Shown here: positions 21,937-59,734 of the stretch, in pieces
Numbering within the stretch: position 1 is the stretch's first letter
How the letters are laid out: every line of letters starts with the position of its first letter
Assembly (NCBI RefSeq): GCF_014191055.1
Contig: NZ_JACHWB010000002.1
Span: 865,612 to 929,611 of the forward strand
Direction: 5' to 3'
Origin: Microvirga lupini
GTDB lineage: Bacteria; Pseudomonadota; Alphaproteobacteria; Rhizobiales; Beijerinckiaceae
Length of the DNA: 64,000 nt
Made by a program: the position numbers and the translations under genes
The notes under the pieces: generated by a model
Databases searched by the model: none
What the model was told of the DNA's origin: nothing
What the model saw: the letters and a program-made list of their open reading frames with translations, nothing else

Positions 21937-23730
21937 TTAGAACGCCTCGACCGGCATCGCCATGGTCGTGTCGGCGCCCGTCGTGATGAGGGCGAGGCGC
22001 GTTGCGGTCTCGGGCATCAAGCGCTCCATGAAGAAGCGACCGGTGAGCAGCTTGGCGTCCATCTTCTCGGCGACGCCGTTGCCTTGTGCCTTCTTGGCCT
22101 GAGCCGCCTTCGCCATCCGGGCCCACATATAGCCCAGAACCACCAGGCCGAAGAGGTGCATGTAGTCGGTCGCCCCGGCGCCCGCGTTGTCGGGCTTCGC
22201 CATGGCGTTCTGCATGAACCACATGGTCGCCTGCTGGAGATGGCCAAGGCCCTGCTGCAGCGGCGCGATATAGGGCTTCAGGCTCTCGTCGCCGGCATTC
22301 TCCTGGCAGAAGGCGCCGACCTCGTTGAAGAAGGTCATGACCGCGCGGCCGCCGTCCTTGCCGAGCTTGCGGCCGACGAGATCCATGGCCTGGATGCCGT
22401 TGGCGCCCTCGTAGATCATGGCGATACGAGCATCGCGCACGAACTGCGACATGCCCCATTCCTCGATATAGCCGTGGCCGCCGAACATCTGCTGCGCCTT
22501 CACGGCATTGTCGAAGCCGAGATCGGTGAGCACGCCCTTCGCCACAGGCGTCATGAGGCCCATGTAGTCCTCGGCCACCTGGCGCTGCGCCTCGTCGGAG
22601 GAGCGGTGCGCGATGTCGTTGTTCAGCCCCGTCCAGACGATGAAGGCGCGGCCGGCCTCGTTGAAGGCCTTGATGGACATCAGCGTGCGGCGCACGTCCG
22701 GATGCACGATGATCGGGTCGGCGGGCTTGTCGGGAAATTTCGCGCCGGTGAGCGAGCGGCCCTGGAGACGGTCCTTCGCATAGGCCACCGCGTTCTGGTA
22801 GGCGACCTCGGACTGTGCCAGCCCCTGCACGCCGACGGCGAGGCGCGCCTCGTTCATCATCACGAACATGGCGTTGAGGCCGCGGTTTGCCTCACCCACG
22901 AGCCAACCCCTGGCGCCGTCGTAGTTCATGACGCAGGTGGCATTGCCGTGAATGCCCATCTTGTGCTCGAGCGAGCCGCAGGAGACACCGTTGCGCTCAC
23001 CCAGCGAGCCATCCTGGTTCACGAGGACCTTCGGCACGACGAAGAGCGAGATGCCCTTGGTGCCCGCCGGTGCGCCCTCGATGCGGGCCAGCACTAGGTG
23101 GACGATGTTCTCCGCCATGTCGTGCTCGCCGGCCGAGATGAAGATCTTGGTGCCGGAGATCGCATAGGAGCCGTCGCCATTCGGTACGGCCTTGGTCTTG
23201 AGCAGGCCCAGATCCGTGCCGCAATGGGGCTCGGTGAGGTTCATGGTGCCGGTCCATGTGCCCTCGATCATCTTCGGCAGGTAAGTCTTCTTCTGCTCCT
23301 CGGTGCCGTGCACGATGAGCGCCGCGATGGCTCCTTGAGTCAGGCCCGGATACATGCCGAGCGCGAGGTTCGACGAGGAGACGAATTCCTGCATGATCGT
23401 GTTGAGGACGGACGGAAGCCCCTGCCCGCCGAACTCGTCGGGCGCAGCCAGACCCATCCAGCCACCGGCGGCATAGGCCTCATAGGCCTCCTTGAAGCCT
23501 TTCGGCGTCGTCACCGATCCATCCGGGTTGCGGGTGCAGCCTTCCTGGTCGCCGGACAGGTTCAGGGGCGCGAATACCTCCTCGCAGAGCTTGGCGCCCT
23601 CGGCCAGGATCGCCTCCACCGTGTCGGACGTCGCATCGGCGAAACCCGGCAGGTTGTTGTATCGCTCAATCGGAAACACGTCGTTCAAAAGGAACATGAC
23701 GTCTTCGACGGGGGCCTTGTAGACCGGCAT
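21937..23730 (-). CDS. acyl-CoA dehydrogenase with C-terminal extension (DmdC/FadE-like)
   Basis: The 597-residue flavoprotein has the acyl-CoA dehydrogenase N-terminal, middle and C-terminal domains, with FAD-site segments MNLTEPHCGTDLGLLKTKA and FISAGEHDM, the catalytic-glutamate region MIYEGANGIQAMDLVGRKL, and an extra C-terminal domain typical of the about 600-residue DmdC-like subgroup. ATG 23730 with GGAG ten bases upstream was chosen; 14 upstream codons are open. It catalyses the first, FAD-dependent step of beta-oxidation. It is the promoter-proximal gene of the operon that includes thiolase and the FadB-like protein. Confidence 0.94.
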   Translation of the reverse strand: MPVYKAPVEDVMFLLNDVFPIERYNNLPGFADATSDTVEAILAEGAKLCEEVFAPLNLSGDQEGCTRNPDGSVTTPKGFKEAYEAYAAGGWMGLAAPDEFGGQGLPSVLNTIMQEFVSSSNLALGMYPGLTQGAIAALIVHGTEEQKKTYLPKMIEGTWTGTMNLTEPHCGTDLGLLKTKAVPNGDGSYAISGTKIFISAGEHDMAENIVHLVLARIEGAPAGTKGISLFVVPKVLVNQDGSLGERNGVSCGSLEHKMGIHGNATCVMNYDGARGWLVGEANRGLNAMFVMMNEARLAVGVQGLAQSEVAYQNAVAYAKDRLQGRSLTGAKFPDKPADPIIVHPDVRRTLMSIKAFNEAGRAFIVWTGLNNDIAHRSSDEAQRQVAEDYMGLMTPVAKGVLTDLGFDNAVKAQQMFGGHGYIEEWGMSQFVRDARIAMIYEGANGIQAMDLVGRKLGKDGGRAVMTFFNEVGAFCQENAGDESLKPYIAPLQQGLGHLQQATMWFMQNAMAKPDNAGAGATDYMHLFGLVVLGYMWARMAKAAQAKKAQGNGVAEKMDAKLLTGRFFMERLMPETATRLALITTGADTTMAMPVEAF

Positions 23731-51034: not shown

Positions 51035-53224
51035 TCAGACCTGAAGCCAGTTCCTGAGCCTGGAGAGGCGCGGCTCCTCTTCCGAGCCGACCGCCTGAAC
51101 CAGTGCAGCCCGGCTGCCGACGAGGATCACCAGACGGCTTGCCCGTGTCACCCCCGTATAGAGAAGCTTGCGCCGCAGCATCGAGGCCTGTTGCAGGGCA
51201 ACCGGGATGACCACGGCCGGATACTCGGAGCCTTGCGCCTTGTGGATTGTCACGGCATAGGCCAGAGCCAGCTCGTCGAGCTCCTGCAGCGAGTACACAA
51301 CCATCCTGTCGTCGAACGCAACGGTGAGTTCGCCGTGGTCGCGGCTCACCTCGCGTACGATGCCGACTTCGCCGTTATAAACATCGCGCTCGTAATCGTT
51401 GCGGACCTGCATGACCTTGTCACCTGGCCCGTAGCTCCAGCCGGCCCGGTGCAGGCTATCAAGACATGGCGGATTGAAGATCTGCTGCAGTTCCCCGTTC
51501 AGCGCATGCGTGCCGAGACGACCACGATTCATGGCGCACAGCACCTGCACGTCCCGCACCGGATCGAGGCCGAAGCGGCACGGAATCCGGTCGCGGATCA
51601 GGATGGTCATCTTGGCCATGGCCTCGGACGGCGTCTCGGCCTCGATGAAGTAGAAATCGGAATCCGGCTGATGACCCAGATCGGGTACGAGGCCTCGGTT
51701 GATCGCATGGGCCACGGTGATGATGCGGCTCTCCCGCTCCTGCCGGAACACTTCCCTGAGATGCACCACCGGAACGGCGCCGGACGCGATGATGTCGGAC
51801 AGGATCTGCCCTGGGCCGATGGAGGGCAGCTGGTCCACGTCGCCCACGAGAACGAGCGAGGCTTCGTCCGGCAAGGCGCGCAGCAGCGCCGCCATCAGGC
51901 GGATGTCGAGCATCGAGGTCTCGTCGACCACGAGAAGGTTGCAGTCGAGCGGCATCTTGGTGTTGCGCCGGAAGCCGCCCTCGGACGCTTCCAGCAGGCG
52001 GTGGACGGTCTTGGCCGGAAAGCCCGTGCTTTCCGACAGCCGCTTGGCAGCCCGTCCGGTCGGCGCACACAGGGCAATCGTCAACGCATGCTGCGCGCAT
52101 AGATGCGTCAGGCTTCGGATCAGCGTCGTCTTGCCGACACCAGGCCCACCGGTCACGACGAGCACCTTCGAGCGGCAGGCGGAGGCCAGGGCCTCGCGCT
52201 GGCTCGGCGAGTAGGAGACGCCGATAGCTGCTTCAGCCTCAGCGATTATCTGCTCGCTATTAAATCCGCTCCAGGGATGAACTCCCTGGGCGATATCCTT
52301 CAGGCGCTGCGCGATGAAGAGCTCGGCACCATAGAGGCCTTTCAGGAAGATGCTGCGGCGGCCATCAAGCTCGTCGCCGACGAGCTGACCTGCCGCACAT
52401 TGCGCATCAAGCACCGGCTTCAACTCGGCTTCAGAGACTTCAAGCAAGCGACTCGCCTGCCGCAGCAGTTCATCCGCCGGCAGGCCGGAATGCCCTTCCT
52501 TCACGGCCTCCGAGAGCACATGCGCAAGACCGGCCTGAAGCCTGATCGCGGCTGTGGGCTCCACGTCGAGCTCCAGCGCCACCTGGTCGGCGAGCGCGAA
52601 CTCGAAGCCTGCAATGTCGAGGACCAGCCGGTACGGATTGGCCTTGACGATGTCGATAGCCCCGACCCCGTAGGCGCGGTAGATGCGCGTGAGCAGAAAG
52701 CCGCCGATGCCGTGAGCATTCAGAAAGGCGGCGATATCCTTCAAGGCCCGGTGCTCGGTCCAGGCCGCGCCGATGCTGAGCGCCTTGGCCATCGCGATGC
52801 CATGCACCCGCGTCAGCTCGTGCGGCTTCGTCTCGATCACGTCGAGGATGCGCGCACCGAAGGATGCGATAAGCCTCTGGGCGAGAGAAGGTCCGAGGCC
52901 TTTCAGCAGGCCGGAGCCGAGAAAGCGCTGCAGGTCTTCCGCCGTGGTCGGCGCCGAGGTCGTCAGCTCGCTCGCGCGGAACTGAACCCCGTGATTGCGG
53001 TCATGCAGCCAGCCGCCACTCGCCTCGACAACCTCACCCATGGCGACCGACGGCGCATGACCCACGACAACAACGGGTTTGCGGTGCCCGCGCGCTTTCA
53101 CGCGCAGTACGCAGAAGCCGGTTTCATCGTTGTGGAACGTCACCCGCTCGATGGAGCCGACGAGATGTTCGGAGAGGAGCAGCGCCTCCTGATCGGAAGC
53201 AGCCATGGCGGAGGATTTTGGCAT
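51035..53224 (-). CDS. recD2: ATP-dependent RecD-like DNA helicase RecD2
   Basis: The 729-residue superfamily 1B helicase has an N-terminal OB-like and helix-hairpin-helix region (about 20-180) absent from RecD of RecBCD, the Walker A motif VVTGGPGVGKTTLIRSL at about 357-371, Walker B LVVDETSMLD, the later motif VGDVDQLPSIGPGQIL and the C-terminal helicase motif VTIHKAQGSEYPAVV, with YTGVTRAS near the end. RecD2 proteins unwind 5' to 3' and act in repair and replication restart without RecBC. It neighbours the SOS-associated island, but no LexA box lies directly upstream. Confidence 0.95.
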   Translation of the reverse strand: MPKSSAMAASDQEALLLSEHLVGSIERVTFHNDETGFCVLRVKARGHRKPVVVVGHAPSVAMGEVVEASGGWLHDRNHGVQFRASELTTSAPTTAEDLQRFLGSGLLKGLGPSLAQRLIASFGARILDVIETKPHELTRVHGIAMAKALSIGAAWTEHRALKDIAAFLNAHGIGGFLLTRIYRAYGVGAIDIVKANPYRLVLDIAGFEFALADQVALELDVEPTAAIRLQAGLAHVLSEAVKEGHSGLPADELLRQASRLLEVSEAELKPVLDAQCAAGQLVGDELDGRRSIFLKGLYGAELFIAQRLKDIAQGVHPWSGFNSEQIIAEAEAAIGVSYSPSQREALASACRSKVLVVTGGPGVGKTTLIRSLTHLCAQHALTIALCAPTGRAAKRLSESTGFPAKTVHRLLEASEGGFRRNTKMPLDCNLLVVDETSMLDIRLMAALLRALPDEASLVLVGDVDQLPSIGPGQILSDIIASGAVPVVHLREVFRQERESRIITVAHAINRGLVPDLGHQPDSDFYFIEAETPSEAMAKMTILIRDRIPCRFGLDPVRDVQVLCAMNRGRLGTHALNGELQQIFNPPCLDSLHRAGWSYGPGDKVMQVRNDYERDVYNGEVGIVREVSRDHGELTVAFDDRMVVYSLQELDELALAYAVTIHKAQGSEYPAVVIPVALQQASMLRRKLLYTGVTRASRLVILVGSRAALVQAVGSEEEPRLSRLRNWLQV

Positions 53225-53315: not shown

Positions 53316-53987
53316 TTAGGCTGCCTTCTTGGTCGGCCAGCCGAGTTCGACGAGCCGCGCCTTGGCATAGTCGCGGATCTCGTCGCGGATGCCCTCCGGC
53401 AGTTCGGCGAGCACCTTCTGCGTGTCGGCATGGAGCATCAGGTCCGTGACCGCATTAATGGTCTTGGCCTTCTTGATCTTCGCCTTCAGATCATCCTCAA
53501 CCTTGCCGTCGGAGGCAGCAGCCTCGACCCGGCCCTTCTGCGGCTGGGCCTCGGTTTTCTCGACCTCCACGTGCGGATCGGCAAAGCCCGGGCGACCCTG
53601 CTTGAACTCGTCCGCCTCTTCCTCGGAATAGACATAGCCGTGCAGTTCGATGAGCTTCAGGATCACGCGGTCCTTCGCCCGCTTCTCGGCCATGGCATAG
53701 ACATAGGCCGCCTGCTTGCCCGAGACGCGGTAGTTCACGCCGATCAGCGCCTCGCCGATCGACCATTCAACGCGCTCGCCCATGCGACCGGTGACCTGGA
53801 TCACCGCCTCATCCCGCTCGGCACGGATGATCTTGGGCTCGTCGAAGACCACGTTGGCCTGCGCGGCAATGCGCTCAAGCGTCTTGTGGTAGACCACGGC
53901 CGTTCCCTGGACCCGCCAGACATTGCCGGCCATCGGCTCACCGAACTTGGCCAGCACCTCGGAGATTTTCTTATCGGTCGTATTCAT
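53316..53987 (-). CDS. SOS-associated hypothetical protein, possible Rad52/annealing-like
   Basis: The 223-residue product is not a firm family member. The N-terminal half has a pattern recalling Rad52/DdrA-type single-strand annealing proteins: VVYHKTLERIAAQANVVFDE, a strand with VEWSIGEALIG, then a helix AYVYAMAEKRAKDRVILKLI close to the ExAxKxAxTDAxKR form of Rad52. A charged linker precedes a C-terminal helical domain (residues 170-223). The start is ATG 53987. A perfect LexA box lies 73 bases upstream, and its neighbours are a TnsA-like gene, Mre11/Rad50-like genes and SSB. That makes a recombination role plausible but unproven. Confidence 0.7.
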   Translation of the reverse strand: MNTTDKKISEVLAKFGEPMAGNVWRVQGTAVVYHKTLERIAAQANVVFDEPKIIRAERDEAVIQVTGRMGERVEWSIGEALIGVNYRVSGKQAAYVYAMAEKRAKDRVILKLIELHGYVYSEEEADEFKQGRPGFADPHVEVEKTEAQPQKGRVEAAASDGKVEDDLKAKIKKAKTINAVTDLMLHADTQKVLAELPEGIRDEIRDYAKARLVELGWPTKKAA

Positions 53988-54059
53988 CCTTGATCCTAAC
54001 TTTATAGGGCCCGTATATCGGCTCACGCTCTTCTCGAAACCGTCTTCTGCGGCAGGCAT

Positions 54060-54348: not shown

Positions 54349-54999
54349 ATGTCCGCGCAAGCGATCCTCGACCTATCGGATCGACGCCCTGCCCGCCGCG
54401 GCGGCACCCGCCGTGCTGCCAAGCGCCCGGTGGCGCCGCTGACGCGCAACGCCCTGATCGCGGACTTCCTGGCGATCTGCGAGCTCGATGCCGACGTGGA
54501 GTCCCTGCGCGCGCCGGCTGATCCGGCAACCTTCGCCATCGGCGACGAGACGGTGGAGCACGTGGCCGATTTCGAGATCGTCCGCGACGGTTCGGTTTAC
54601 CTCGTCGACGTGGTGACGGATGACGATCTGTTGAACCATCCCCTGCGCGCCGCCGCCATTCACGGCATCACCTGCGCCGACGGACGTCCCTTCCTGATCG
54701 AGACGGCGGCGAGCATCCGGTCGGAGCCTCGCTTCACCACCATGCGCCTCATCATGGCCTGCAAGCGCACGCCGGTGACGGCGGGGGACCGGGTGCGCAT
54801 CCTGCACCAGCTTGATGAACTCGGCACCATGCGGCTTGTCGATTGCGCCAGCGCCGTGATGAACACGCAGGATGGGGTCGCGGCCGTTCTGGCGCTGGCC
54901 TGCGAAGGCCTGGTGGCCGTCGACATCAGCCGTCCGATCCTGCCCGAGACGCAGGTGCGCCGACGCCGCCTGCCCTTCGCCGATCCGTTTGCCTTTTGA
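54349..54999 (+). CDS. hypothetical protein with TnsA-like nuclease fold, catalytic lysine missing
   Basis: The 216-residue protein shows a basic N-terminus and then a segment (about 70-90) like the restriction-nuclease-type core of TnsA: EHVADFEIVRDGSVYLVDVV, with a possible acid and a following strand; the lysine expected in the TnsA DxK pattern is replaced by valine/aspartate. The C-terminal part (about 130-216) looks like a winged-helix tail as in TnsA. No TnsB/TnsC genes are near, so this is not a Tn7-type transposon. It may have an annealing- or end-binding role or be an inactivated nuclease. It is SOS-promoter-linked. Family assignment is tentative. Confidence 0.6.
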   Translation: MSAQAILDLSDRRPARRGGTRRAAKRPVAPLTRNALIADFLAICELDADVESLRAPADPATFAIGDETVEHVADFEIVRDGSVYLVDVVTDDDLLNHPLRAAAIHGITCADGRPFLIETAASIRSEPRFTTMRLIMACKRTPVTAGDRVRILHQLDELGTMRLVDCASAVMNTQDGVAAVLALACEGLVAVDISRPILPETQVRRRRLPFADPFAF

Positions 55000-55002
55000 G
55001 GC

Positions 55003-55998
55003 TTAGGAGGCGTGCCGCTCCACCGCCTCGCCAAGCAGCGAGCGCACGATGGCGCGCACCGCATCCGACGTATTGTCGGCCGTGAACCTCGCCTCGATCT
55101 CATCGCGGATGATCGAACCGTCGCCGCTGCGCTTCAGCTCGGTTGAGGATTCCGCCTGAAGCAGGGTCACGAAGGCGCTCTCCACCTCGCGCGCCACCAG
55201 CGCCTCATCAGCCGCATCGACCACGCGGCCCGTGAGATCGAACACGTTGCTCTCGAAAGGCAGCGCCTGCGCTTCGAGTTCGCCGCTGCCATCGAGGATC
55301 CAGGCGCGCGGCACGTGATCCATCAGGTCGACGGACTGACGCGTGATGTTGCCTGGATTGAGCCAGCGTGTCCGGCCCGCAAGAATGGACTTCTGGGTCT
55401 TGTGGATGTGACCGTTGATCATGACATCGCAGCCTTCCACCGCGAAGGGCGGAACGGCGCCGGGATAACCGCCGTCGAAAGCGATGTCGTGATGCGTGAA
55501 CCAGGCCTGGAGATCGGCACTGGTGAAGGAGCCGCGCGCATCGGTTGGAATAGTTTGACCATAGGGCGTCATGCCGACGCCGATTCGACGCGTGCCGATC
55601 TGGAACTCGGCGACTGGAGCGGATGTGGACACGACGTCGACCACATCGCAGAGACCGAGCAGCGCCAGCGAGTCGCTGTCGGTGAGCGTCGTATGCTGGA
55701 TGTCGTGGTTGCCCACGTTAACGATAGGCCGGTGGCGAAAGCCTTTCAGGATGCGAATCAGCTGGTTCTTGAGCGCCACATCGGTCTCGACCGGTCGGTC
55801 GAAGAGATCGCCGAGAATGACCACGGCGAGCTGCCGCTCATTGGCGATGGAAATGCAGCGCTCCAGCTTGCCCAGCACAGCCTGAGGCCAGACCGCATCC
55901 TTGCGCCGCCCAGGACGCCGCGAACCCACATGCGGGTCCCCGATCACGAGAATGCCGTTGCAGGCAACAGCGGGAAGTCGATCGCCGGTCAGGATCAT
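55003..55998 (-). CDS. Mre11/SbcD-like metallophosphoesterase, partner of the permuted ATPase
   Basis: The 331-residue protein contains the five phosphoesterase motifs of Mre11-type nucleases: VIGDPHVGSRRPG, VILGDLFDRP, IVNVGNHDIQHT and, later, MINGHIHKTQ, with a C-terminal capping region of about 100 residues. Its ATG overlaps the stop of the Rad50-like gene by four bases, so the two are made together, as SbcCD or Mre11-Rad50. It should be a Mn-dependent nuclease that processes DNA ends. It ends four bases from the convergent TnsA-like gene. Confidence 0.92.
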   Translation of the reverse strand: MILTGDRLPAVACNGILVIGDPHVGSRRPGRRKDAVWPQAVLGKLERCISIANERQLAVVILGDLFDRPVETDVALKNQLIRILKGFRHRPIVNVGNHDIQHTTLTDSDSLALLGLCDVVDVVSTSAPVAEFQIGTRRIGVGMTPYGQTIPTDARGSFTSADLQAWFTHHDIAFDGGYPGAVPPFAVEGCDVMINGHIHKTQKSILAGRTRWLNPGNITRQSVDLMDHVPRAWILDGSGELEAQALPFESNVFDLTGRVVDAADEALVAREVESAFVTLLQAESSTELKRSGDGSIIRDEIEARFTADNTSDAVRAIVRSLLGEAVERHAS

Positions 55999-57821
55999 GC
56001 GGTGAGCCGCTCCGAGGCATTCAGCGAATGGGTGTGATGGTCCAGCAGGGTCTCAGGCTTCACGGGCGAACCGCAGGTCGGGCACAGCCCGCCGGTTTCC
56101 TCGACGAGGCGCGCCATCTCGGCTTGCAGGGATTTCAGCCCTTCATCGACCTGCACCATGCGGCTTCGGGCGATCTGCGAAGCCGTGCGAAGATCGCTCA
56201 GCCTTTTCAGAATGTTTTGTGCCGAAGCGTAGTTTTCAAGGGTCGGCACGGCTTGCGGCAGTTGAAGCAGCGCATCCAGCCGCGCCTGGCTGCGTGTCAG
56301 ATTACGGCTCAGCTGCAGCACTTGCCGCCCGATGCGCTCGCGTTCGCGGGCACGTTCGACCGCACGGGTGAGATCGGCGAGCCGCTCCGCCGGCGGAAGC
56401 ATCTCGGTGATGCAGGCGCGTGCCTCGGCTGTCGCCAGCCGTCGCCGGATGGTGGCGATCTGCGCTGCATGGCTCTGCAGCCGCTCCAGTCCCACGGCTT
56501 CCGTCGCTAAACGCTTCGCCTGCTGGCGGACGGCCGAGAGCTTGTCCTTCAGTTGTTCGAGCTCGGTGAGTCCATCGAGCGTCTCGCTCAGCGTGATCAG
56601 CTCCCGCTCGCCGTTGCGCACAAGATCGTTGTCCCGGCGGCAGCGTTCGCGATGGATCGCGAGCATGTCGCGGATATAGCCCGCCTCCTGCCCGATCGAG
56701 AGAACCGCCGAGCGGCGTGACGGCGTCTCGCCGAGCAGGAATACGGGAAATTTCTGGTGCGCGATATGAACGTCGAGATCCTCGACCTTGCGGATGCGGA
56801 TGAGATCGGCCACCCAATCTGGCACATTGCGCCCGCCGGTCTCGTAGCGCATGCCCTGCTCTTCGACCACGGAGCCATCGGGTTCATGCAGCGACCAGAT
56901 GTTGACCGGCGAGCGGCGCGGCTGGCGGGTGAAGCGCAAGGTCCGCCGCCCGGCAACGCCGATTTCCACCGTGGCGGATTTCGCGCCGGCGCGCACGAGG
57001 CTGTCGCGGGCCTCGCCATAGAACACGGCACGCAAGGCGCGGATGAAGGTGGACTTGCCGCGGTTGTTCGGCCCGATCAGCGCATTGACGCCCGGGCTCA
57101 GAGGCAGCGTCGCATCCGCATAGGCCTGCACGTTGACGAGACGGATGTACCGCAAACCCGACTGGGAGTCGTCCCACTGCGCGCTGGTGTCGGAGGAAAC
57201 CACCTCCACCCCGGTGACCGGCTCGCCGGCGATGCGCGCGATGTGGAACTTGCCGGAGAACTGCGACAGGTCGTGGTGCGAGACCGCAAGGCACTGGACG
57301 CCGAGCCGCGCCGAGCCGTCTTCCAGCACTGTGTAGAAGGACGACACGCGCTCCGGCGCAATCCAGCAATCGGCTTCGTCCAGCGCCAGGAAGCGCGCGA
57401 CATCCGCCTTGACCACGGCGATCAGGCGCAAAGCCATGCCGATCACATTGGTGAGCGCGCCGCCATTGTCCTCCAGCACGTCTTCAAGCGAGCCATCCGG
57501 GCGCCGCACGCAAATGTCGAGGGACGCGAGCCCCCGCTCAGTCGAAAGCTCCAGCGCCACGGGCTTCTCGCCCGGCAGCACCTCCTGCACGAGCGCCGTC
57601 AGCAGGGTCTCGAAGGCGGACAGGCTGCGACGGCTCGCAGCGCCATGCACGGCCTCAATGAACGTCTCCACCTCATCCTTGACCGCGAGGCGGCCCTTGG
57701 CGAGTTCGATTTCGCGCGTGAGCTCTTCAACCCGCGTACGGATGGCATCGCGCCGGCCTTCGAGGCGCGCGAGCAGCGCTTCCGCTCGGGCAACATCGTG
57801 AGGGGCAGAGGCCAAGATCAA
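55995..57821 (-). CDS. circularly permuted Rad50/SbcC-like ABC ATPase with C-terminal zinc hook
   Basis: The 608-residue protein has the parts of Rad50 in a rotated order. Residues about 11-55 are coiled coil; about 56-212 is the C-lobe, with a degenerate signature (EDNGGALTNVIGMALRL, 117-133), Walker B RFLALDEAD (143-151) and the H-loop in LAVSHHDLSQF (178-188); about 224-395 is the N-lobe, with Walker A LIGPNNRGKSTF (248-259) and the Q-loop in HIAHQKFPVFLLGE (352-365); 395-575 is coiled coil; and the zinc-hook motif CPTCGSP ends it (580-586). Standard Rad50 runs N-lobe, coil, hook, coil, C-lobe. The TTG start overlaps the upstream gene stop (TTGA); the stop overlaps the Mre11-like start (ATGA). 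Nucleotide binding and hydrolysis residues look intact except for the weak signature. Confidence 0.88.
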   Translation of the reverse strand: MILASAPHDVARAEALLARLEGRRDAIRTRVEELTREIELAKGRLAVKDEVETFIEAVHGAASRRSLSAFETLLTALVQEVLPGEKPVALELSTERGLASLDICVRRPDGSLEDVLEDNGGALTNVIGMALRLIAVVKADVARFLALDEADCWIAPERVSSFYTVLEDGSARLGVQCLAVSHHDLSQFSGKFHIARIAGEPVTGVEVVSSDTSAQWDDSQSGLRYIRLVNVQAYADATLPLSPGVNALIGPNNRGKSTFIRALRAVFYGEARDSLVRAGAKSATVEIGVAGRRTLRFTRQPRRSPVNIWSLHEPDGSVVEEQGMRYETGGRNVPDWVADLIRIRKVEDLDVHIAHQKFPVFLLGETPSRRSAVLSIGQEAGYIRDMLAIHRERCRRDNDLVRNGERELITLSETLDGLTELEQLKDKLSAVRQQAKRLATEAVGLERLQSHAAQIATIRRRLATAEARACITEMLPPAERLADLTRAVERARERERIGRQVLQLSRNLTRSQARLDALLQLPQAVPTLENYASAQNILKRLSDLRTASQIARSRMVQVDEGLKSLQAEMARLVEETGGLCPTCGSPVKPETLLDHHTHSLNASERLTA

Positions 57822-58114
57822 CGCTCGTCTCCGAGCTGCCTGAGCCGCGTCTCGACCTCGCGCAGAGCCATGCCGAATTCCTCCGCGAGCTTGGCGTTTC
57901 TCACTTGCGCTTCCTCGATCAGGCTTTGAATCTGCGCTTCATCGTCCGTGCCGAGCTCGGCTTTGGCGAGGGCGCGCGCCTCCTCAAGCTCGCGCATCAG
58001 TCGCTCGACCTCGCCCTCAGCCCGGATCCGTTCCGCCCGCAGCTTATCAAAGCTCTTGCGCATCTCCTCCAGGCGGCGGAGCTGGTCGGTCTCAAAGCGT
58101 GACTGGCTGGTCAT
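57818..58114 (-). CDS. small coiled-coil protein coupled to the permuted Rad50-like ATPase
   Basis: The 98-residue protein (ATG 58114; a TTG at 58135 gives seven more) is almost wholly coiled coil, with heptads such as LRRLEEMRKSFDKLRAERIR and VERLMRELEEARALAKAEL. No domain is recognised. The stop overlaps the TTG start of the ATPase in TTGA, so translation is coupled, or a frameshift could join the two. In ordinary Rad50 the descending coil follows the hook; here this protein could be that coil, because its reading direction and place, directly before the ATPase's own short N-terminal coil, are the right ones. That is inference. Confidence 0.78.
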   Translation of the reverse strand: MTSQSRFETDQLRRLEEMRKSFDKLRAERIRAEGEVERLMRELEEARALAKAELGTDDEAQIQSLIEEAQVRNAKLAEEFGMALREVETRLRQLGDER

Positions 58115-58292
58115 GGAATCGCGGCTCCGCTGCAAAGGAATGGTCGAGCTTCAGTTATCGTCAGCGCTATTTCGTCGCAACGACTTTGCCTCTTTTTGGT
58201 CTGGATAGGGGACGATGTCTTCAATCCTGGCATCCGACCCTCCACATAGTATCCGTTACTCCAAGATTACAGTCTCAAACAGCGGACTTTGC

Positions 58293-58332: not shown

Positions 58333-58405
58333 ACATCATCTGTATGCGTCGTGGATGTGACCTCATTAGGGCAGCATGATGCGCCCTCGGCACAAGGATC
58401 CCGTG

Positions 58406-59011
58406 ATGAGCGCCATGACGGAAGAGCGTCCAATCTTCGAGAACGAGGAGTGGCTCGTGAACGAGAGCGGCCTCGAGCACAAGACCACCGGGTATTTCAT
58501 CGATCGCGAGAGCCTCGGCCAGCGGCGCGAGGATGGGCTGTGGGCGTGGCCGCTGCACATGGCGGAGAAGAGCTGGTGCGGCATGCAGCCGTTCTCGGAA
58601 GCTTTCACCTGTGCCCTCTCCGTTTTCGGCATCGGCACAGGCGTGGATCTGGCGCAGAGCCTGAAGGTTGCGCGCTGCGAAGTCTCACCTTGGCCGAAGG
58701 CTGCACGGACCCATGCGGGGTCGGTTCCGGCGATCCCGCGCACCTTGCATCCGAAGGGTTCAAACCCCATCTTAGTGAAGCCGCGCTCGTCGCATAAACC
58801 TTTGAATGGTCAAGGTATTCCGAGCCCGGCTGAAGCCTGGCGCATTCGCACCACATTGGGCGCGCGCCTCATTCTGAAGAACTCGCGTCAACGTTCCGAA
58901 CGCCTGAACCCGCCCCGTGAAGCCATCCTCTCCTGGCAGGCGCCGCGCCGGATTCGAAAGACCGGAACGAAGCTCGTTCGGCTGCTTCAGGCGGCCTGGA
59001 ACATACGGTGA
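58406..59011 (+). CDS. SOS-linked hypothetical protein, C-terminal half possibly decayed
   Basis: ATG 58406, preceded by AAGGA at good spacing, opens a 201-residue frame. Residues 1 to about 95 read as a compact domain (ENEEWLVNESGLEHKTTGYF; WAWPLHMAEKSWCGMQPFSE), resembling phage-encoded proteins of unknown function. From about residue 95 the composition changes to a basic, proline-, arginine- and tryptophan-rich sequence without obvious secondary structure, so that part may be out of frame or decayed. The stop overlaps the next gene's GTG (GTGA). It follows a LexA-controlled promoter. Confidence 0.65.
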   Translation: MSAMTEERPIFENEEWLVNESGLEHKTTGYFIDRESLGQRREDGLWAWPLHMAEKSWCGMQPFSEAFTCALSVFGIGTGVDLAQSLKVARCEVSPWPKAARTHAGSVPAIPRTLHPKGSNPILVKPRSSHKPLNGQGIPSPAEAWRIRTTLGARLILKNSRQRSERLNPPREAILSWQAPRRIRKTGTKLVRLLQAAWNIR

Positions 59012-59430
59012 GATTGATGCCAAGCTTTGGGCTTGAAGAGATGATGCGCCATGGCGCAAGTGCTTTCCAGGGCGACATCTCCGGTGCGGAGACGCCGGCG
59101 CCTGAAACGGCGGATGCGTTCGCGCAGCATGTGATCGAGACGATCTGCCATGCAAGCGTGACCCCGGCCATCGGCCGCCGCACGTTCGAGCGCTGCATGC
59201 GCGCGCTGAGCTTCGGGTCTACGGCTCGCTTGGGCTTTCGCCACCCGGCGAAAGCTGAGGCCATAGACGTGATCTGGCGCGAGCGTGAGCGCCTGTTCGC
59301 GGAATACACGGCAAGCCCGGACAAGCTGCGCTTCCTTGCGACGCTGCCCTGGATCGGCCCCGTGACGAAACACACCCTGGCCCGCCGGCTCGGCATCTAT
59401 GCCGCGCATGGAGAACGGGCTGTTGCCTGA
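59008..59430 (+). CDS. helix-hairpin-helix protein, probably C-terminally truncated
   Basis: The 140-residue product starts with GTG overlapping the preceding stop. It is largely helical; residues about 110-130 contain a helix-hairpin-helix motif, FLATLPWIGPVTKHTLARRLG, as in phage-type DNA glycosylase/lyase-like proteins. Those proteins, as I recall them, continue beyond this motif, whereas this one ends 15 residues later, so a C-terminal part may have been lost. A DNA-binding function is plausible, no catalytic residues are visible. It is in the SOS-linked plus-strand cluster. Confidence 0.6.
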   Translation: MRLMPSFGLEEMMRHGASAFQGDISGAETPAPETADAFAQHVIETICHASVTPAIGRRTFERCMRALSFGSTARLGFRHPAKAEAIDVIWRERERLFAEYTASPDKLRFLATLPWIGPVTKHTLARRLGIYAAHGERAVA

Positions 59431-59458
59431 GACGAACAACAAGAAGAGGTATCAACCC

Positions 59459-59734
59459 ATGGCTAAGGTTCGCGCAAGCGATGTCGGCTTCTGCGTTGTC
59501 GACGGCAACGCCAATGTCATCGCAGACAATCTCGTCCACCGCATCCGCGAAGCTGCCGCGGAGATGGAAAGCCAAGTCAACCGGCTCTACCGGGGCCGCA
59601 GGGCTTATGATCTTGAGGCTGGCACCAAGGACGATCTCGACAAAGCCATCGAGCAGCTCACCTACATGGCGCGCACCCTGCGCGAGGTGAAGGACGAGCA
59701 GACGAGGGTGGTCTACCTGCAGGCGGCTGAATAA
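59459..59734 (+). CDS. small helical hypothetical protein
   Basis: A 91-residue frame begins at ATG 59459 after AGAGG and encodes an N-terminal strand (DVGFCVVDGNANVIADN) followed by helices (VHRIREAAAEMESQVNRLY; DDLDKAIEQLTYMARTLREVK). No family is recognised. It lies 28 bases downstream of the HhH gene and 250 bases upstream of ssb, between SOS-linked genes, and is probably part of the same transcript as the HhH gene. Bases 59735-59864 hold no gene. Confidence 0.75.
   Translation: MAKVRASDVGFCVVDGNANVIADNLVHRIREAAAEMESQVNRLYRGRRAYDLEAGTKDDLDKAIEQLTYMARTLREVKDEQTRVVYLQAAE

Follow-up and report, generated by a model that had tools for sequence, protein, structure and literature searches.

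A conserved, circularly permuted Rad50-type ATPase of Microvirga lupini, with a probable third subunit and extant split relatives

A Rad50 or SMC protein is described as a single chain that leads out along a coiled-coil arm, reverses at a hook or hinge, and returns. In Mre11-Rad50 complexes the heads engage over ATP, the hooks join protomers through zinc, and Mre11, at the base of the coils, cuts DNA ends or hairpins. Here we analyze a 64,000-nucleotide stretch of the Microvirga lupini genome (contig NZ_JACHWB010000002.1, positions 865,612 to 929,611; hereafter the window) that encodes a Rad50-type ATPase with another layout: its two ATPase lobes stand in swapped order and its hook motif lies near the C-terminus, as an initial annotation of this DNA had proposed.

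The accessible part of PMC6969161 presents the Rad50 hook as a constitutive dimerization module, and that of PMC3175470 describes Mre11-Rad50 fusions in Mimivirus (R555) and Bacillus phage 0305phi8-36. Fusions from the Bacillus phage and from Anaerostipes are said there to be without one P-loop segment, a loss that a split C-lobe would likely explain. Titles and the first parts of abstracts, from a literature collection with little coverage of subscription journals, gave no permuted Rad50, in agreement with the initial annotation, which knew of no family with this layout. Where these sources were accessible, circular permutation refers to methylases (PMC7824862 and PMC10853773), HEPN domains (PMC3710099) and the T4 genome (PMC3175470).

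Two Rad50 lobes in swapped order

The ATPase gene occupies 55995..57821 and encodes 608 residues from a TTG start, although this start is uncertain because the database protein of 100% identity (P0002) has 606. The coordinates initially given stand, and we add to them the strand, which is minus for this gene and for the other parts of its operon, a third operon gene, and split relatives. The chain begins with a coil (residues 3-81, 57579..57815; AlphaFold2 helices 3-46 and 48-81) that would be the head-proximal part of the ascending coil, followed by a Rad50 C-lobe (residues 82-208, 57198..57578) with the signature N119-G-G-A (119-122), the Walker B core L147-D148-E149 (57375..57383) and the H-loop S-H182-H (181-183). 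A short linker (residues 209-222, 57156..57197), set between model strands 204-208 and 225-231, leads into a Rad50 N-lobe (residues 223-378, 56688..57155) that carries Walker A, G250-PNNRG-K256-S-T (250-258, 57048..57074), and the Q-loop residue Q356. From there a helical arm (residues 379-576, 56094..56687; AlphaFold2 helices 379-418, 421-473, 478-519 and 532-575) extends to a CPTC zinc-hook motif (residues 580-583, 56073..56084), 25 residues from the C-terminus. The initial annotation read this same order of motifs, lobes joined by a short linker, and a chain opened at the hook; the last point needs refinement, since the N-terminal coil is far shorter than the 201-residue arm and most of the ascending arm half is thus absent from the ATPase chain.

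Homology searches support the identity of both lobes and rule out the possibility, raised initially, that the apparent C-lobe is another domain. A profile of the first 214 residues and their relatives found 3qkr_B as its best PDB match (E = 1.8e-12, over 31-208), with SMC chains ranked lower than Rad50 chains, and the top Foldseek match of the C-lobe was the Rad50 fragment 1f2u_B. Residues 221-375 match Rad50 N-lobes, Walker A and Q-loop included, and a profile of the hook region (554-624) matches Rad50 chain 6zff_A (E = 7.7e-5). The swap itself is seen against solved Rad50 chains, where query residues 226-272 fall on chain positions 6-52 and residues 120-208 on positions 271-358, the latter stretch being weak alone in both of the searches concerned. 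AlphaFold2 places the two lobes in one domain (residues 40-425) with a predicted local distance difference test score (pLDDT) of 88.9 and a predicted template modelling score (pTM) of 0.81, and they are predicted to form one ATPase head, the composite fold that the initial annotation expected. The best viral structural match to this head is phage protein A7KV18. When the window protein was rotated in silico and compared with a model of eight alphaproteobacterial SbcC proteins, its best stretch rose from 4.5 bits in the native order to as much as 13.7, with the hook placed before the N-terminal coil, and the hhalign score went from 86.4 to 91.3; among the matches listed, the C-lobe never aligned to these divergent SbcCs.

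Motif conservation in the family is far above chance. Across 41 aligned proteins, the window's included, G120, G121, D148, E149, H182, G250, G255, K256, S257 and Q356 are invariant, and likewise C580, P581 and C583 of the hook, which upholds the initial view of ATPase motifs intact except for the signature. A CxxC lies within the last 120 residues of all 41 full-length open reading frames (ORFs) obtained from 45 loci (the rest being one split C-lobe, L110, and three without a detected start), and within the last 80 residues of 163/163 proteins, 139 of which, nearly all close relatives, share a 201-residue arm. The gene is under purifying selection, with a ratio of nonsynonymous to synonymous substitution rates (dN/dS) of 0.12-0.20 against six congeners, two pairs giving identical values. 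The signature is N-G-G-A in the window ATPase and LSGGE in 8/8 SbcC ORFs compared. Among 33 C-lobes, permuted and split, G120, D148, E149 and H182 are invariant and the residue preceding the GG pair varies. From these alignments, the degenerate signature characterizes the family at large, the split forms too, and is not tied to the permutation.

The window ATPase departs from canonical Rad50 in having neither the N-lobe first and the C-lobe last nor a mid-chain zinc hook. Its best score against the NCBIfam Rad50 models is 43.2 bits, for a cut-off of 700, and the SMC hinge model is not among its 16 Pfam matches up to E = 10, the chain ending at the CxxC. Many named database records label the protein only as an 'AAA family ATPase'. 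These failures to fit the canonical layout set it apart as a Rad50 variant, likely one that works like Rad50.

The operon, its distribution and its partner subunits

The ATPase gene is preceded by a gene for a small coiled-coil protein (sCC; 57818..58135, 105 residues from a TTG whose choice as the start is uncertain) and followed by a Mre11/SbcD-type metallophosphoesterase gene (55003..55998, 331 residues). Both junctions are 4-nucleotide overlaps, TTGA between sCC and ATPase and ATGA between ATPase and Mre11-type gene, which suggests translational coupling of all three and bears out the coupling to an Mre11-type gene proposed at first. Among 101 loci with an intact ATPase (of 104 given; L091, L095 and L107, at contig ends, gave no ATPase ORF), the sCC stands directly upstream in 96. 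Of the five misses (L081, L090, L101, L036 and L037), L036 and L037 have an annotated small gene and the sCC of L101 was found by a hidden Markov model (HMM). The Mre11-type gene is directly downstream in 92 of the 100 loci with room for it and is present as an over-long ORF in the other eight (L042, L082, L083, L084, L086, L088, L089 and L093); sought anywhere in the locus, it is missing in 4/73 (L085, L091, L095 and L107), all with a contig end close behind the ATPase. Sequence comparison establishes a protein with both Rad50 lobes in swapped order and a C-terminal hook motif, in an operon of three overlapping genes that relatives have kept.

A scan of named genomes gave 62 loci, 57 with an intact family ATPase ORF, the remainder being two with a separate C-lobe (L110 and, at a contig end, L111) and three cut at contig ends. 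These loci come from Microvirga, Methylobacterium, Aurantimonadaceae, Antarcticirhabdus, Thalassospira, Salipiger, Sabulicella, Roseococcus, Arenibaculum, Variovorax, Achromobacter, Novimethylophilus, Acidithiobacillus, Agitococcus and a few further bacteria. Plasmid records, of which 26 matched and 11 did so across 80% or more of the query, extend the list to Bosea, Rhizobium, Methylorubrum AM1, Acidiphilium, Pseudomonas, Vibrio, Aeromonas and Alteromonas, with many members on megaplasmids; matches on Bacillota, Fusobacteriota and Thermus plasmids cover the N-lobe side only. One Microvirga locus (L068) is on a complete chromosome. The gene occurs in 42 of 47 same-genus genomes, 41 times near full length and once as a 65-residue fragment, and one congener has a second, divergent match (G008:C33:235774-237330; 34% identity over 17-535). 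Outside its strongholds the permuted ATPase gene is rare: an even sample of Pseudomonadota held it in 2/398 genomes at E = 1e-25, the source genome and one of the same family, a count that is a lower bound given four candidates scored per genome. Viral contigs yielded no relatives from 9 pattern stretches (A1) or from 37 (A9), and C-lobe queries of a phage collection matched only vB_BboS-125 (two records), Magritte, one uncultured phage and one Microcystis phage, with phage 0305phi8-36 not among the matches. In the genome of the window, an SbcC model gave a single 20-bit match, to a 562-residue frame, and an SbcD model gave none at E = 1e-3, this model being insensitive enough to miss the window's own partner too. 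Strong SbcC matches (E < 1e-30, five candidates scored per genome) occur in 0/48 genomes of the genus and 11/72 others, and Microvirga cells may have no other Mre11-Rad50 complex than the permuted one.

By eye, the sCC consists of two helix-rich stretches around an L/F/Y-G-T motif. Its clearest split counterparts are in the phylum of L110, a contig from a metagenome-assembled genome on which the pieces of the permuted operon are separate genes: an HMM of eight permuted sCCs ranked 10/10 split sCCs of that phylum top among 683 ORFs (E = 2e-17 to 3e-13). The reverse HMM, of seven split sCCs, finds the ORF adjoining the ATPase in 94/101 permuted loci, and its four further significant matches (L107, L091, L095 and L101) lie at the expected sCC site beside a truncated or differently started ATPase. 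Bacillota-type sCCs are weakly linked to it (E of roughly 4e-4 to 2e-2). We propose that the sCC probably stands in for the hook-proximal ascending arm half lacking in the ATPase chain. That it is the missing return strand of the arm has roughly even odds, and is favored because the helix-rich stretches of the window sCC are, by eye, close in length to helices 478-519 and 532-575 of the outer arm.

Arm lengths bear on this proposal. From residue 379 to the hook, most alphaproteobacterial members have an arm of 161-165, 199-201 or 235-242 residues (L101 departs from this with 224); one metagenome protein has 281, and the beta- and gammaproteobacterial and Acidithiobacillus loci have 222-223, 255-256 or 272. 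Differences among relatives often come in steps near 40 residues, with the arms of 222-224, 255-256 and 272 (L101, L105, L109, L102, L106 and L104) off this ladder. The N-terminal coil is 75-91 residues long in 159/163 proteins, and the sCC ORF has 105 residues beside the 161-residue arm of L088, 105 beside the 201 of the window, and 102 beside the 272 of L104. An sCC that does not lengthen with the arm would suggest either that arm modules fold locally or that the arms of two protomers pair, the sCC covering a fixed stretch. The sCC might be a separate regulator or chaperone, with the outer arms of two protomers pairing or folding on themselves, a reading to which we give slightly less than an even chance. 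It would account for arms of 161, 201, about 240 and 281 residues alongside an N-terminal coil of ~81 and an sCC without visible growth, and for the proline loops, which could fold locally and which recur 38-39 residues apart in 25/30 spacings of ten related split arms and in 3/11 spacings of permuted arms. It would not account for the sCC sitting at the expected place of the ascending coil in both split and permuted operons, and the match in length to the outer arm helices also speaks against it. Proline-loop spacing is 34-35 in two betaproteobacterial arms, and the window arm has the pattern once only; repeats at 38-39 residues run along the arms of the N-lobe genes L130, L137 and L138.

The partner has all five metallophosphoesterase motifs in the window (GDPH, GDLFD, GNHD, HHD and GHIH) and matches Pfam Metallophos (E = 3.3e-7) and the SbcD-like phrog_100 (E = 1.1e-12). 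All 20 matches of its PDB profile search are named Mre11, SbcD, rad32, 'double-strand break repair protein' or 'exonuclease, putative', the last two of which we take to be Mre11; its score for the NCBIfam sbcd model, 15.7 bits, is below the cut-off of 77.65. Under strict patterns, all five motifs are found in 77 of the 100 partner ORFs; another 12 lack one or two, two from Microvirga lack three, and nine lack four or five. These nine are the partners on gammaproteobacterial megaplasmids (L034, L035, L037 and L044-L049), in which D-x-H, GNHD and GHxH are absent in 9/9; eight annotated records call them 'hypothetical proteins'. In six aligned records of this group the ATPase motifs and hook are kept, and the degenerate partners argue, at the level of sequence, that tethering can persist without cutting. 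Extended to the whole family, this would make the permuted Rad50 chiefly a device for holding DNA together, in replicon maintenance or segregation, and the Mre11-type subunit chiefly a structural clamp. The many members on megaplasmids would suit such a role, but we consider it unlikely in general: the motifs are present in the window partner and nearly complete or complete in most others, the Microvirga gene can be chromosomal, as in L068, and five of 47 congeners are without it.

Split relatives and the origin of the permutation

A separate C-lobe occurs in 10/294 genomes of the L110 phylum, that of L110 included, and all ten operons have the order N-lobe-arm-hook, Mre11, sCC, C-lobe. On Bacillota megaplasmids, on a Fusobacteriota plasmid and in one phage the order is N-lobe, sCC, C-lobe; Paenibacillus, Aneurinibacillus, Geobacillus and Jeotgalibacillus carry Mre11 as a fusion with the N-lobe chain. 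On the Jeotgalibacillus malaysiensis plasmid (L038, L116) the Mre11-N-lobe fusion and the sCC are together and the C-lobe gene is ~74 kb off. Cetobacterium somerae plasmid p3 (L041) has its N-lobe-arm-hook in two overlapping ORFs of 252 and 123 residues and an iscB gene between the C-lobe and Mre11-type genes. In Bacillus phage vB_BboS-125 (L031) an unannotated stretch, 22426-23352, encodes an Mre11-type partner, so that the phage has all split pieces (N-lobe gp32, sCC gp34 and C-lobe gp35). Microbacterium phage Magritte was considered as a rotated but unfused intermediate and dropped: its gene 4 is, by eye, a DnaX-like clamp loader, and gene 2, a C-lobe, is the sole piece counted there.

In a tree of 50 chosen rows of loci rooted on eight SbcC proteins, the 25 permuted rows group as a single clade (99/96), which joins the ten L110-phylum splits at 100/97, with the other splits outside; the branch of L041 is very long. 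Forcing all splits into one clade costs 10.2 log units and is rejected by the approximately unbiased test (p-AU 0.015). The permuted order sCC, C-N, Mre11 is a cyclic rotation of the order N, Mre11, sCC, C in the L110 phylum, an agreement expected by chance 1 time in 6. From the tree and the gene order we infer a route of fission, rotation and fusion: a canonical Rad50 would first have been broken near the hook into collinear genes for N-lobe-arm-hook, coiled coil and C-lobe, and the cyclic gene order would then have been rotated, with fusion of the C-lobe to the N-lobe, probably a single time, in an ancestor of the sampled Pseudomonadota proteins.

The textbook route to a circular permutation is a tandem duplication that then loses its ends, and here it would mean duplication of the whole gene followed by trimming, with the split operons as later, independent fissions. 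Dependence of the rooting on a long branch leaves this some room, yet we think it improbable. The splits branch next to the permuted clade as well as outside it, retaining the canonical collinear order N-lobe, sCC, C-lobe, and both the rejection of a single split clade and the shared cyclic order of four genes count against it.

A candidate DNA-end complex and its relation to known systems

The explanation that we favor, and hold to be quite likely, is that this circularly permuted Rad50/SbcC-type ATPase acts with its Mre11-type and sCC partners as a DNA-end tethering and processing complex and arose by fission, rotation and fusion. By analogy, we infer that it would work like SbcCD, with ATP hydrolysis, a zinc-hook dimer and DNA binding. 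ATP would bring two heads into engagement, zinc would link two protomers by their C-terminal hooks, the Mre11-type subunits would sit on the base of the coils and cut DNA ends or hairpins, and the 105-residue sCC would take the place of the hook-proximal ascending arm half. The anatomy fits the Mre11-Rad50 mechanism, from which every one of these steps is drawn. A more specific version, which we put forward tentatively and rate as a little less probable than not, has a one-time permutation opened at the hook by fission, rotation and fusion, a hook-proximal ascending arm half turned into a separate subunit, so that the arm is a non-covalent two-chain rod with a length that changes in modules of ~40 residues, and a nuclease-dead DNA tether on the gammaproteobacterial megaplasmids.

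Several observations weigh against the favored explanation. The serine of LSGGE is missing in nearly all family members, and absence of the gene from 5/47 congeners indicates that it is dispensable. Motif loss in 9/9 gammaproteobacterial megaplasmid partners means that nuclease action is not the family's sole role. Of the eight sCCs from Bacillota, phage and Fusobacteriota, the HMM of permuted sCCs found none below E = 1e-3 (best 0.01), the sCC scores 19.9 against canonical SbcC and 19.8 in the reversed control, and it does not visibly grow with the arm, in a comparison of lengths for which no correlation was computed. On the origin, the group used in the approximately unbiased test was named after the tree was seen, and the very long branch of the canonical outgroup weakens the rooting.

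SMC-like complexes, Lamassu among them, act in immunity according to the accessible part of a review (PMC10586767), and the best PADLOC match of the ATPase is LmuB (E = 1.1e-12, over 226-590). An anti-phage or anti-plasmid complex of the Lamassu kind, with a Rad50-like sensor, nevertheless seems very unlikely. The LmuB match is limited to the side of the N-lobe and arm. Neither LmuA nor LmuC appears at E = 0.01 among seven neighboring proteins scanned, the partner, the sCC and four other neighbors included (for the ATPase, among the matches listed); in PADLOC the sCC matches nothing and the partner has a single weak match, to a methyltransferase. Unlike mobile defense islands, the locus has a fixed setting: four flanking ORFs (53316-54059, 54349-54999, 58376-59011 and 59399-59734) are conserved beside the operon in 34/34 Microvirga loci. 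The first two also occur in 9/39 other loci and have no Pfam match; NCBIfam gave none for three of the four and sub-cut-off matches only for 54349-54999. A RecD2-like helicase (HHH_RecD2, OB_YrrC) at 51035-53224 of the window is near the operon in 23/34 Microvirga loci. A chance or broken fusion of two fragments is refuted by conservation, with the layout in 41/41 full-length ORFs, dN/dS of 0.12-0.20 and invariant catalytic residues, and nothing found in its favor.

The family is thus a circularly permuted Rad50 that has been conserved, has a probable third subunit and has split relatives alive today. A conserved Rad50 that ends at its hook would show that chain continuity is not required, and it raises the question of what carries force or signal between hook and head. 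Is the return arm half supplied in trans, and is a hook functional as a chain end? The family also opens a view of how circular permutations evolve in large multidomain proteins, since split relatives are extant here.

Among known systems, the heads of SMC, RecN and RecF proteins share the ABC head fold; to our knowledge they have no CxxC hook and no Mre11 partner. Lamassu LmuB is likewise a Rad50/SMC-like ATPase with similarity in N-lobe and arm, and differs in that its match covers one side only and no effector match was found among the scanned neighbors of the window ATPase. The Mre11-Rad50 fusions also place Rad50-like proteins on plasmids and phages, but with Mre11 preceding Rad50 and no permutation described in the accessible part of PMC3175470. 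The split Rad50 operons share homologous lobes, the Mre11-type partner, the degenerate signature and an sCC that is clearly homologous in the L110 phylum and weakly so elsewhere; they differ in having N-lobe-arm-hook and C-lobe as separate, collinear genes, and some Bacillota fuse Mre11 to the N-lobe chain. Compared with canonical Rad50/SbcC, the window ATPase reverses the lobes, carries its hook at the C-terminus, has a short N-terminal coil and an unequal arm, is without LSGGE, adds the sCC gene, and has 608 residues to the 966-1258 of eight SbcC ORFs, while retaining both lobes, Walker A and B, the Q- and H-loops, the CPxC hook and an Mre11/SbcD partner in its operon.

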